Assembly: GCF_002750855.1 (NCBI RefSeq)
Contig: NZ_NWUC01000002.1
Location: 434,001-498,000, forward strand
Direction of reading: 5' to 3'
DNA length: 64,000 bases
Source: Neopararhizobium haloflavum
GTDB lineage: Bacteria; Pseudomonadota; Alphaproteobacteria; Rhizobiales; Rhizobiaceae
The position numbers were made by a program, and so were the translations under genes. Under the pieces are notes generated by a model, which saw nothing but the letters and a program-made list of their open reading frames with translations, ran no database searches and was not told the DNA's origin. Positions 11,346-49,671 of this stretch are shown here, piece by piece (the stretch's first letter is position 1; each line of letters starts with the position of its first letter).

Positions 11346-11864
11346 TCAGTGCCGCGCAAACGCCGTTTGCAGCAGCGAGATTTGTGCCTGGACGCTGTTC
11401 TCGTTGTCGGGACGCAACTCGTCTGTCTGGTCGACGTTGTAGATTTCCCGGTCGAGCATCGCGACACGCGCCTGCAATCGGAGCGATCGGGCGACGAGTT
11501 CGCGAAACGCTTCGGGCAGATCGTCCCAGCCGGGCGCCGTCGTGTCGACCGTAAAGCTCTCGATGCGGACCTTGTTCTTTTCGGAGATGACCTGGTCGCG
11601 CGTCATCTCTCCATTGTTGACGGCGCGCTGCAGAAGGAGCCAGGAGGCCATCTGCATCAGCCGCGTCGTCAGTCTCATCGATTCGGCGGCATAGAGGATC
11701 GAGGCCATTCGCGGCAGATCTTTCGAGGACTGCCGACCGGGGCCGTCCAGGTAACTCGCCGTCTCTTCAACAAGACCCATTCCTTCCGCATACAGCGACT
11801 TGAAGGGCGCAGAGCTGGCGACATGACCTGCAAAGCTGATCGTGTTCGTTTCAATATCTTCCAT
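11346..11864 (-). CDS. rcdA: RcdA, adaptor for CtrA proteolysis (DUF1465)
   Basis: A 172-residue protein of the DUF1465/RcdA family. RcdA bridges phospho-free CpdR-primed ClpXP and PopA in Caulobacter to deliver the master regulator CtrA for degradation. Family signatures are clear: GLVEETASYLDG, ESMRLTTRLMQMASWLLLQRAVNNGEM, and a C-terminal NSVQAQISLLQTAF. The ATG at 11864 fits the conserved N-terminus (MEDIETNTISFAGHV); a longer frame to 11924 adds unconserved residues. A CtrA box of type TTAA-N7-TTAA lies 148 bases upstream, which would close a feedback loop. cpdR is present at 49.9 kb in the same window. Confidence 0.93.
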   Translation of the reverse strand: MEDIETNTISFAGHVASSAPFKSLYAEGMGLVEETASYLDGPGRQSSKDLPRMASILYAAESMRLTTRLMQMASWLLLQRAVNNGEMTRDQVISEKNKVRIESFTVDTTAPGWDDLPEAFRELVARSLRLQARVAMLDREIYNVDQTDELRPDNENSVQAQISLLQTAFARH

Positions 11865-12011
11865 TGAAGGCGCTTCCCTTGGGCACGTCTTTTTGGCTGG
11901 TCCGAACACGCGCGTTTGGCCCATTGAGGTCTAAACACACGAGTCGTCGGGACGTTCCGTCCGATCTAGAGCTAGAATGGGACGGCGGCACGGTCGGAGG
12001 CAAGAACGTAA

Positions 12012-12026
12012 TTAAGAAAGGGTTAA
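12012..12026 (-). promoter_or_regulatory. CtrA box upstream of rcdA
   Basis: Exact TTAA-N7-TTAA (TTAA at 12012-12015 and 12023-12026, spacer seven). This is the full CtrA consensus. It is 148 bases before the rcdA start and beyond the terminator that closes transcription from upstream, so it most likely serves rcdA. Confidence 0.7.
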
Positions 12027-12076
12027 TGTCCACAACGCGGCTTGGCAAGCGGGACGCGCAAACGCGGGCGCTGGAC

Positions 12077-12102
12077 AAAAAAAGAGCCGCAAATGCGGCT
12101 CT
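12077..12102 (-). terminator. Rho-independent terminator (minus strand)
   Basis: Stem AGAGCCGC/GCGGCTCT with a four-base loop, followed on the minus strand by seven T. No protein gene ends near it: the DUF1192 stop is 160 bases upstream and has its own hairpin. This is the main reason to infer a separate RNA gene. Confidence 0.88.
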
Positions 12103-12176
12103 CGAGAGTTTAACAGGGAGGCGTCAAACAGAGTGACCAGCAGTCAGTCTGCAAAGCATCCAGAACGTCTGGATGT
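12077..12176 (-). ncRNA. candidate CtrA-controlled small RNA
   Basis: Predicted transcript of roughly 95-100 bases on the minus strand. A CtrA box (12198-12212) and a -10-like TTTAAT (12181-12186 on the minus strand) stand just upstream. The RNA would open with an eight-pair hairpin (12157-12175), continue with a single-stranded part containing GCCUCCCUG (about 12113-12123), which can pair with Shine-Dalgarno sequences, and end at a canonical Rho-independent terminator (12077-12102, seven U). This architecture is typical of Hfq-type alphaproteobacterial trans-acting RNAs. It has not been compared with a family model; EcpR1-type cell-cycle RNAs are one family to test. Confidence 0.55.
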
Positions 12177-12197
12177 TTCGATTAAACACCACCACGA

Positions 12198-12212
12198 TTA
12201 ACAAACACTTAA
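12198..12212 (-). promoter_or_regulatory. CtrA box of the small RNA candidate
   Basis: Exact TTAA-N7-TTAA (12198-12201, 12209-12212). On the minus strand it sits where CtrA-activated promoters place the box, over the -35 region relative to a TTTAAT -10 at 12186-12181. Confidence 0.68.
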
Positions 12213-12238
12213 CAGGCTAATTTTTCCTAGAATCTTCG

Positions 12239-12259
12239 AGGTCGTAGAATGTACGACCT
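12239..12259. repeat. inverted repeat after the DUF1192 gene
   Basis: Perfect eight-base arms AGGTCGTA and TACGACCT with a five-base loop, two bases beyond the DUF1192 stop. It may be a weak terminator or mRNA-end hairpin; no T-run follows directly. Confidence 0.55.
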
Positions 12260-12261
12260 GA

Positions 12262-12450
12262 TCAGCGAAAGAAGCTCTCTGCGGCGGCTCGGCTCGCCGA
12301 CTTTGCCTGACGTTCTGCTTCGAGACGCTCGATCTCACGTTTCAACGCCGCGATTCGTTCTCCAAGTTCGTCGGCCGACAGCAACGTCAGATCGGCGCCG
12401 ATTTCATGCACCTTGGCCAGCGGCTTGGGTTCCTCATCGAACATTGCCAT
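12262..12450 (-). CDS. DUF1192 family small protein
   Basis: A 62-residue protein whose conserved core is MAMFDEEPKP...LTLLSADELGERIAALKREIERLEAE, the DUF1192 signature. The second half is a short coiled coil (IAALKREIERLEAERQA). The start at 12450 gives the family's usual length; an in-frame ATG at 12504 would add a non-conserved leader. Function is unknown, though it is widespread in Alphaproteobacteria. It is divergent from the quinone oxidoreductase gene. Confidence 0.85.
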   Translation of the reverse strand: MAMFDEEPKPLAKVHEIGADLTLLSADELGERIAALKREIERLEAERQAKSASRAAAESFFR

Positions 12451-12557
12451 CGCACCAGTCCTCGCATCGTCGGCAGTGGCCGAATTGTCCCCTGCCCTCG
12501 CCATGACCCCATGACAGGCACTATAAGACGAAGCCTGGCAATGCGAAACAGGACGGA

Positions 12558-48704: not shown

Positions 48705-48784
48705 GGGCAGTTCGCTGCAATGCCCTCTCTTTGGGCGTTTCCTCCCTAGACTTCAACCGCGTCTTCACCGGCGCGGTTTTTTTT
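48705..48784 (+). ncRNA. mmgR: MmgR small RNA (suhB RNA motif, alpha-r8 family)
   Basis: An 80-base transcript bounded by a consensus promoter and a Rho-independent terminator. It opens with a GGGCA/TGCCC hairpin, has the single-stranded UUUCCUCCCU that is the hallmark of the alpha-r8/MmgR family, and ends with an AACCGCG/CGCGGTT stem and eight T (48777-48784). In Sinorhizobium meliloti MmgR limits polyhydroxybutyrate storage under nitrogen limitation. Its position next to the inositol-monophosphatase-type gene supports the call. No phb genes are in the window. Confidence 0.85.
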
Positions 48785-48786
48785 GG

Positions 48787-49671
48787 CTATTCGGCTGCGA
48801 GGGGCCGGACGGCTTGCTGGTCGGCGACGAGAGCGACCATGGCGTCGATGAAATCGCAGAGATCGCCGTGTATCAGGTCGAAACTCGGCTTCTTTTCAAG
48901 CTTTTCCTCATCAAAGTACAAACCGCGGTTCACTTCGATCTGGATGGCGTGCAGGCCATGGGTCGGCCGGCCGTAGTGCTCAGTGATGAACCCACCGGCA
49001 TAGGGCTTGTTGCGTGTCACGGTATAGCCGAGGTTCTGGAGGAAAAGCGCCGCAGCGCGGGAAAAATCCTGCGAAGCACTCGTCCCATAGCGATCGCCGA
49101 TAATGAAATCAGGCCGTGGCCCGGTTGCAGACGTGCGGATGCTCGCCGGCATGGAATGGCAATCGATCAGCACCGCTTGTCCGAACCGAACATGTGTGCG
49201 CGCGATCAGGCGCCTCAGACAGGCATGATAAGAGCGATAAAGCGTCTCGATGCGGGCGAGCGCGTCGGCAACCGGGATACGATGGGCATAGATCTCCATG
49301 TTCTCGGCGACGAGGCGCGGTATCGTGCCAAGGCCCCCAGCAACGCGTGTCGAGCCGACATTGGCGTAGGAGGGCAACTTGCCGTCGAACATCTTCGGGT
49401 CGAGTTCGTAGGGCTCGCGGTTGACGTCGAGAAAGGCGCGGGGAAAATGTGCGACGAGCAGCGGCGCCCCTGCCGTCACGGCGTGGGAAAAAAGCTCGTC
49501 GACATAGTGGTCTTCGGACTTGCGGATGCGGCGCGCGTCAAGGCGTGATTGCTTGAGAAACGCCTCTGGATAGATGCGGCCGCTGTGAGGAGAATTGAAG
49601 ATAAGGGGGGTGCTCTGACGGGCCGCCATTCGCACTTCGAACGGCTCGCGATCAAAGACGGCCTCACTCAA
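48787..49671 (-). CDS. hutG: N-formylglutamate amidohydrolase
   Basis: About 294 residues. It hydrolyses N-formylglutamate to formate and glutamate at the end of one histidine-degradation route. The family motifs STPLIFNSPHSGRIYP, SEDHYVDELF, FLDVNREPYELDP and VLIDCHSMPAS are present. The TTG at 49671 was chosen: AGGAAGG stands ten bases upstream and the known N-terminus begins there; a longer frame reaches 49833 but adds 54 unconserved residues. Other hut genes are not in the window, so the pathway assignment is by family only. Confidence 0.86.
   Translation of the reverse strand: MSEAVFDREPFEVRMAARQSTPLIFNSPHSGRIYPEAFLKQSRLDARRIRKSEDHYVDELFSHAVTAGAPLLVAHFPRAFLDVNREPYELDPKMFDGKLPSYANVGSTRVAGGLGTIPRLVAENMEIYAHRIPVADALARIETLYRSYHACLRRLIARTHVRFGQAVLIDCHSMPASIRTSATGPRPDFIIGDRYGTSASQDFSRAAALFLQNLGYTVTRNKPYAGGFITEHYGRPTHGLHAIQIEVNRGLYFDEEKLEKKPSFDLIHGDLCDFIDAMVALVADQQAVRPLAAE

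Follow-up and report, generated by a model that had tools for sequence, protein, structure and literature searches.

CcnA of Caulobacter crescentus, a 182-nt RNA encoded at the replication origin, carries a CtrA box in its promoter and acts on ctrA and gcrA through a CCCC loop; in rhizobia, a CcnA-like homologue is reported, in the accessible text of the paper, as not clearly detected (PMC8959179). A rhizobial small RNA (sRNA) tied to the cell cycle is EcpR1 (SmelC291), described in the accessible parts of two papers as lying downstream of divK-pleD and having the loop motif UCCGCCGCAUCU and a ppGpp-linked sigma-70 promoter (PMC4414408; PMC7143759). In Sinorhizobium meliloti, the RNA sm84 was assigned to the interval SMc03988>SMc03989> with an expected length of 110 nt; a Northern band of about 80 nt (2008), microarray signal under several stresses and a predicted sigma-70 promoter are given in the accessible text (PMC2573895). 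Deep sequencing recovered SmelC671, 100 nt on the plus strand at 2,986,421-2,986,520 of strain 1021 (PMC2873474, accessible text), whose family takes in ReC71 of Rhizobium etli and conserves the motif CUCCCUGU (PMC3927594, accessible text). The main texts of these last three papers (PMC3927594, PMC2573895, PMC2873474) contain zero mentions each of CtrA and rcdA.

Both rcdA and CtrA proteolysis are essential in S. meliloti, where CtrA is bound at the rcdA promoter region by ChIP and rcdA expression is unchanged on CtrA depletion (PMC4433202, accessible text). For rcdA, more than one start site is described in three agrobacterial lineages, whose CtrA motifs are located farther upstream than those of Caulobacter (PMC10469942, accessible text). 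The terms sRNA, small RNA and non-coding each occur zero times in the accessible text of PMC4433202, and no sRNA at rcdA is named there or in that of PMC10469942.

The window analysed here is a stretch of 64,000 nt from Neopararhizobium haloflavum, on whose minus strand the following features succeed one another, from upstream to downstream:

12262-12504, minus strand: DUF1192 gene, the upstream neighbour of the sRNA (Pfam PF06698, 72.9 bits).
12198-12212, minus strand: CtrA box of the sRNA, an exact TTAA-N7-TTAA, TTAAGTGTTTGTTAA (from sequence).
12181-12186, minus strand: -10-like hexamer TTTAAT (read from sequence).
12077-12176, minus strand: small RNA of the BjrC1505/SmelC671 family, about 100 nt (RF02356 score, fold, covariation).
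12157-12175, minus strand: hairpin SL1 (CAUCCAG...CUGGAUG), 94.7% of cells paired and double changes at 5 of 6 pairs in 81 sequences.
12128-12152, minus strand: hairpin SL2, 86.6% of cells paired and double changes at 6 of 6 pairs in 81 sequences.
12110-12127, minus strand: hairpin SL3 with loop CCUCCC, with 78.1% and 95.5% of cells paired in its two helix parts and few double changes.
12112-12122, minus strand: near-invariant motif GCCUCCCUGUU, presumed mRNA-pairing seed (alignment of relatives).
12077-12103, minus strand: intrinsic terminator, stem 12103-12082, T-run to 12077 (terminator scan).
12012-12026, minus strand: second CtrA box, exact, presumed rcdA promoter element, between terminator and rcdA.
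11346-11924, minus strand: rcdA (DUF1465), gene of the CtrA-degradation adaptor (PF07323, 195 bits).
11875-11879, minus strand: AGGGA, rcdA ribosome site with 5-nt complement to the sRNA seed, a weak candidate target (best 15.6% of background genes).

The first-pass annotation, made from the letters of the window, had described a minus-strand TTAA-N7-TTAA, a TTTAAT hexamer and a terminator enclosing a small RNA next to rcdA. All three elements are located where it placed them, the PF07323 match confirms rcdA downstream on the same strand, and the terminator, the Rfam match and the conservation in relatives bear out a terminator-ended RNA. The exact motif occurs twice in the 64-kb window against 0.05 expected, at the sRNA box and in the gap before rcdA; that second box (12026-12012) had gone unmentioned, while the first stands as a promoter element of the sRNA. 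We infer an sRNA start at about 12174-12176; a TTTACT-like column at the place of the hexamer is common in the alignment of family relatives. For rcdA, alignment with related proteins makes 11864 (MEDIETNT) a more likely start codon than 11924. The terminator of the sRNA is the only terminator-like site in 11850-12350, a scan that by itself proves little since shuffles of the same stretch give 0.7 on average. A coding role, judged by eye, was set aside: a frame of 11 codons could open at an ATG in SL1, an ATG that S. meliloti lacks.

Against RF02356 (BjrC1505, a Bradyrhizobium sRNA), the segment 12220-12077 matches the complete model (positions 1-140) with 64.9 bits, above the cut-off of 50. 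A described family was thus found for an RNA that the first-pass annotation had left without one, and by position and motif it is also the SmelC671 family. A search of 11900-12320 with the other Rfam families, alpha-r included, returned at E <= 1 only RF02356 and a sub-threshold mmgR. Our own covariance model R1, made from family RNAs over 99 positions and holding no promoter sequence, gives the window RNA 89.9 bits, a score that reflects in part the use of this very sequence in building it. In S. meliloti CP090106.1, R1 finds one strong copy (71.3 bits, 3,080,585-3,080,687; next best 21.8), placed between DUF1192 and DUF1465 as in the window. Judged by gene interval, strand, size of about 100 nt and the CUCCCUGU motif, the window RNA and this copy are members of the sm84/SmelC671 family, with which the window RNA also shares the terminator. 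SMc03988 and SMc03989 we take to be DUF1192 and DUF1465 (rcdA), from gene order and locus numbering. The 6S RNA lies 13.0 kb upstream of the sRNA in CP090106.1 and 14.3 kb by the published strain 1021 coordinates, distances that are near and unequal. As a side remark, CP090106.1 (3.7 Mb, chromosome-type genes, labelled pSymB) and NZ_CP069303.1 (4.6 Mb) are filed as plasmids.

BjrC1505 resembles the window RNA in its whole-model match, the same seed motif GCCUCCCUGUU and the terminator, and its best class-level match (L032, 125.9 bits) also precedes rcdA and has a CtrA box with one mismatch. In the Rfam model, the 5' 43 nt are treated as RNA folded into helices; in family loci, that stretch holds the CtrA box. 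In 80 of the 81 family sequences, these helices (model positions 1-43, 14 pairs) are paired in 43.3% of cells, compared with 41.8% when partners are shuffled, and 11 of 200 shuffles score as high, which suggests that the 5' third of RF02356 is promoter DNA with a CtrA box and not RNA. We keep the family membership on the strength of the score and read the unsupported helices as a fault of the model. Altogether, this is almost certainly a real sRNA of the BjrC1505/SmelC671 family. The sRNA itself is already known: an orphan family with expression evidence and, in the literature examined, no assigned function.

Neither of the precedents cited in the first-pass annotation, EcpR1 and CcnA, accounts for its identity. 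EcpR1 is ruled out by motif, UCCGCCGCAUCU being absent from the window RNA, and by neighbourhood, which is divK-pleD/rpmG for EcpR1 and DUF1192 with rcdA here. CcnA is ruled out by place and size, the window RNA being about 100 nt long and beside rcdA; they are alike in having a CtrA box in the promoter, and in how the RNA acts CcnA would be its closest parallel (PMC8959179, accessible text). Also rejected was mmgR/suhB (RF00519), which scores 20.9 bits on the window RNA against a cut-off of 41. The weak resemblance of the BjrC1505 RNA to mmgR at that score comprises CCUCCCU and a terminator; separately, the window contains another known sRNA, a mmgR proper (RF00519, 54.5 bits) at 48715-48791 on the plus strand.

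At E <= 0.001, RF02356 is present in 81 of 101 family genomes, a set that we take to be GTDB Rhizobiaceae, and 57 of the 101 exceed the curated cut-off; across the class the figures are 40 of 385 genomes and 17 over the cut-off. None of eight Rhizobium/Sinorhizobium-type loci reached the Rfam cut-off for RF02356, and 14 control genomes, Caulobacter vibrioides among them, gave no RF02356 match. R1 recovers the sRNA in 10 of the 20 family genomes that RF02356 missed, and a laxer use of R1 at rcdA loci adds one more (L370, 29.1 bits), for a total of 92 out of 101. The nine family genomes that lack it measure 1.1-3.6 Mb, all but one being smaller than 2.7 Mb, and seven of these nine have retained a DUF1465 gene. 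Class-wide, R1 is found in 41 of 385 genomes. Starting from RcdA-protein matches instead (best 80 of 544, from Rhizobium, Sinorhizobium/Ensifer, Shinella and related genera, close relatives of one another), R1 places the sRNA upstream of rcdA in 80 of 80 loci. Some genomes have two or three sRNA matches, such as G478 (C6:79514-79860, within 350 bases) and G310 (C10, C15); second matches also occur in G034, G101, G268, G289 and G365, several of them weak.

The predicted fold is unusually stable. The 100-nt RNA starting at 12176 has an energy of -39.3 kcal/mol against -22.1 +/- 3.0 for shuffled sequences (z -5.8, 0 of 200 as good). A structure written by hand, comprising SL1, SL2, SL3 and the terminator, pairs in 92.1% of cells across 81 sequences. 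Its covariation score is 0.197, whereas shuffled versions give 0.119 and slid ones no more than 0.080. The structure goes beyond what unguided RNAalifold kept, namely SL2 and the terminator only, with a covariation term of -0.68. Most compensatory changes sit in SL1 and SL2, the terminator pairs in 99.4% of cells across the 81 relatives, and the outer part of SL3 is unpaired in about a fifth of cells, Rhizobium/Sinorhizobium type included. CUCCCUGUU within the sRNA is near-invariant across family relatives. Hairpins, C-rich motif and terminator are thus kept in relatives, and the absence of conservation by which the first-pass annotation would have been refuted is not observed. Comparison of the 81 sequences shows the hairpins and terminator to be under selection. 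The description of the C-rich motif as free holds only in part: in the predicted fold of the window RNA, CCUCCC forms the loop of the third hairpin, whereas in the S. meliloti fold, where the middle hairpin has diverged, the seed is unpaired. A motif of the SmelC671 family would be expected in a long single-stranded domain.

Upstream of the RNA, the CtrA box recurs with great regularity. Of the 172 family loci scored, 171 have a TTAA-N7-TTAA whose end lies 20-21 nt ahead of the RNA segment: exact in 110, with one mismatch in 51 and with two in 10. In the 81 loci found by RF02356, where 70 nt before the RNA were considered, 60 are exact and 21 have one mismatch, a count biased by the fact that RF02356 itself covers the box. 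The other two groups were found without promoter sequence: the 80 loci fetched by RcdA (best 80 of 544) have 44 exact boxes, 27 with one mismatch and 9 with two, and 11 further loci found by R1 have 6, 3 and 1, respectively. The eleventh, L207 (G014), has no box at that place and is the sole such case among the 172 scored, though the sRNA model gives it 66 bits; a weak second match in G034 (L211, 34 bits) was left out of the scoring. Dinucleotide shuffles hold an exact site in a mean of 0.64 of the 81 loci and 0.42 of the 80. The N7 spacers vary freely, with 73 different ones in the 81 loci and 46 in the 80 (best 80 of 544). At class level, counted by hand in the stretch examined, 35 of 39 loci have a box with at most one mismatch, 15 of them exact. 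In S. meliloti, the 50 kb around rcdA hold exactly two exact sites (0.03 expected), at the same two places as in the window. The bases after the second half-site are conserved as well, with the consensus TTAAGCTTTA in the 81 family loci, from which the window departs; perhaps they form a further binding half-site.

The box that the first-pass annotation described for the window thus recurs at a fixed distance from the RNA in nearly all family loci scored. The comparison strongly supports control of the sRNA by CtrA, which would be new as far as we have searched: no link of the BjrC1505/SmelC671 RNA to CtrA was found in the freely accessible literature covered. We consider it very probable that this promoter is CtrA-controlled; a box by itself proves no such control, and L207, the 10 loci with two mismatches and the sigma-70 promoter predicted for sm84 count against it.

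The downstream neighbour is nearly as constant within the family. By tblastn, 79 of 81 family loci and 19 of 39 class loci have rcdA downstream of the sRNA on the same strand; in the remaining 2 and 20 it is not found within 1.5-2 kb. Some of the class-level sRNA matches score low and could be fortuitous. Of nine ORFs next to the sRNA in seven rcdA-less loci, none matches DUF1465. In three of these class-level cases (L037, L041, L051), the sRNA with its exact CtrA box precedes a gene for a Cys/Met-metabolism PLP enzyme, and in L076 an AraC-type regulator lies near it on the opposite strand; the exact box persists in all four without a neighbouring rcdA. DUF1192 was detected by tblastn in 21 of 81 loci, a low count probably owed to a short divergent protein, and we give it no weight as evidence of synteny. 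The gap between terminator and rcdA contains its own exact box in 62 of 79 family loci and in 80 of 80 loci fetched by RcdA (best 80 of 544), 142 of 159 in all, mostly 105-150 nt from the start codon (extremes 62 and 247). Since both boxes lie between DUF1192 and rcdA and rcdA expression is unchanged on CtrA depletion, the published ChIP signal at rcdA may belong to the sRNA, beside rcdA's own box. The multiple rcdA starts and upstream CtrA motifs of agrobacteria could fit the sRNA promoter.

We favour, as probable, the reading of a stand-alone sRNA gene of the BjrC1505/SmelC671 family with a CtrA-dependent promoter and its own terminator, beside a separately CtrA-boxed rcdA and pairing in trans. 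That the RNA acts in trans through its C-rich seed seems rather likely, and the choice of targets was approached through ribosome sites. Seed matches at rcdA were counted in 79 family genomes, the 81 minus L008 and L076 where no rcdA was found (78 genera, two genomes sharing one); related genomes are not independent, and naive p values overstate. As background served 577 genes from 800 kb of S. meliloti, 76 annotated genes, and 365 genes from the window together with 400 kb of its contig, taken with a simple gene caller that, on an annotated test stretch, correctly placed 35 of 38 stops and 28 of the 38 starts.

A Watson-Crick match of at least 6 nt between a genome's own seed and its rcdA ribosome site is present in 24 of the 79 against 7.5% of background; 55 lack it, and the window's own match is 5 nt. 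Among the close relatives fetched by RcdA (best 80 of 544), 67 of 78 have one, leaving out L182 and L198, which are without CTCCC. The ribosome site of rcdA includes CAGGG in 27 of the 79 family genomes and in 72 of the 80 RcdA-fetched loci (best 80 of 544), compared with 26 of 577 sampled S. meliloti genes, 17 of 365 own-genome genes and 5 of 76 annotated S. meliloti genes (rcdA included). By seed energy, rcdA falls in the best 10% of background in 26 of 79 genomes, the corresponding counts being 2 of 30 (ctrA), 2 of 29 (gcrA) and 2 of 26 (rpmE, whose L31 start was located in 26 of 81 loci). Tested with the commonest sRNA core in place of each genome's own, ctrA ribosome sites give a 6-nt match in 0 of 31 cases and gcrA sites in 2 of 30, or 2 of 31 and 4 of 30 within -100..+20, a rough proxy for leader pairing; by this measure and by seed energy neither shows enrichment, and neither was kept as a candidate target. 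One genome, G037, has two equal ctrA matches, on contigs C2 and C14.

Other segments of the sRNA, scored in every second genome, reach the best 10% at rcdA in 8 of 40 (SL1), 8 of 35 (linker), 1 of 40 (SL2) and 3 of 40 (terminator); because SL1 and the linker also exceed chance a little, part of the pairing signal may not be seed-specific. By total duplex energy rcdA is unremarkable, ranking 189th among the 577 genes sampled from S. meliloti and 121st among the 365 from the own genome. Own sRNA/leader pairs have energies 0.57 kcal/mol better than swapped ones, a value reached in 32 of 5000 permutations and confounded by kinship. Compensatory changes between seed and leader were looked for and discarded: eight loci depart from CTCCCTGTT, and the 6-nt match is present in three (L098, L101, L108) and in none of the other five. 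The enrichment of the seed complement at rcdA is suggestive, not decisive. It makes rcdA the best candidate of the four examined (rcdA, ctrA, gcrA, rpmE), most of all within the Rhizobium/Sinorhizobium/Shinella branch; given the ordinary total energy, the 55 of 79 genomes without a 6-nt match and the mere 5 nt in the window, we nevertheless regard it as doubtful that rcdA is among the targets.

These same data bear on the reading in which the CtrA-driven sRNA is real and acts chiefly on other mRNAs whose ribosome sites are of the GGGAG type, with rcdA a mere neighbour. We rate it at close to an even chance: the seed resembles an anti-Shine-Dalgarno sequence, so that many genes could pair, the energy rank of rcdA is ordinary and the sRNA is kept at loci without adjoining rcdA, whereas the enrichment of seed complement and of CAGGG at rcdA sites, unlike ctrA, gcrA and rpmE, speaks against it.

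That the box instead represses, or is a spacing element, with the sRNA a stress or growth-phase RNA under sigma-70, appears improbable. The published sigma-70 prediction and multi-stress microarray detection of sm84 (PMC2573895, accessible text) would agree with it, and the second half-site lies about 22 nt before the inferred start, a position that does not tell activation from repression. On the other side, the box precedes the -10-like hexamer, at the place expected of an activator that substitutes for a -35 element, and a scan of 11850-12350 found no sigma-70 consensus promoter, a weak point as shuffles give only 0.2. Least probable of all is that the sRNA promoter is a distal rcdA promoter and the RNA an attenuated rcdA 5' leader acting in cis by terminator read-through, for although 79 of 81 family loci have rcdA next on the same strand and agrobacterial rcdA has several starts with far upstream CtrA motifs (PMC10469942, accessible text), the RNA has its own, nearly invariant terminator, rcdA has a separate exact box (142 of 159 loci, 80 of them the best 80 of 544), the S. 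meliloti transcript is short, about 80-100 nt (PMC2573895, PMC2873474, accessible texts), and rcdA is not found near 20 of 39 class-level (some weak) and 2 of 81 family loci.

A stand-alone, trans-acting RNA fits better than a leader because of that terminator and the separate box before rcdA. In such a scheme, phosphorylated CtrA would activate the sRNA late in the cell cycle, and its C-rich CUCCCUGUU would pair in trans with ribosome-binding sites and lower translation. CtrA would then turn on both its own degradation adaptor, RcdA, and an RNA restraining that adaptor, so that CtrA destruction would be delayed. The most specific version is one we hold unlikely as it stands: a twin CtrA-box module in Rhizobiaceae (CtrA box, sRNA, terminator, CtrA box, rcdA) working as an RNA-delayed loop, where CUCCCUGUU/AACAGGGA pairing would block the rcdA ribosome site and protect CtrA until the RNA falls, making SmelC671 a CtrA-driven counterpart of CcnA in rhizobia.

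Altogether, an orphan and widely conserved sRNA family gains a likely regulator, CtrA, and a role that can be tested. The arrangement offers a possible explanation for CtrA ChIP signal at rcdA without an effect on rcdA transcription (PMC4433202, accessible text), and it suggests that rhizobia possess an RNA arm driven by CtrA.
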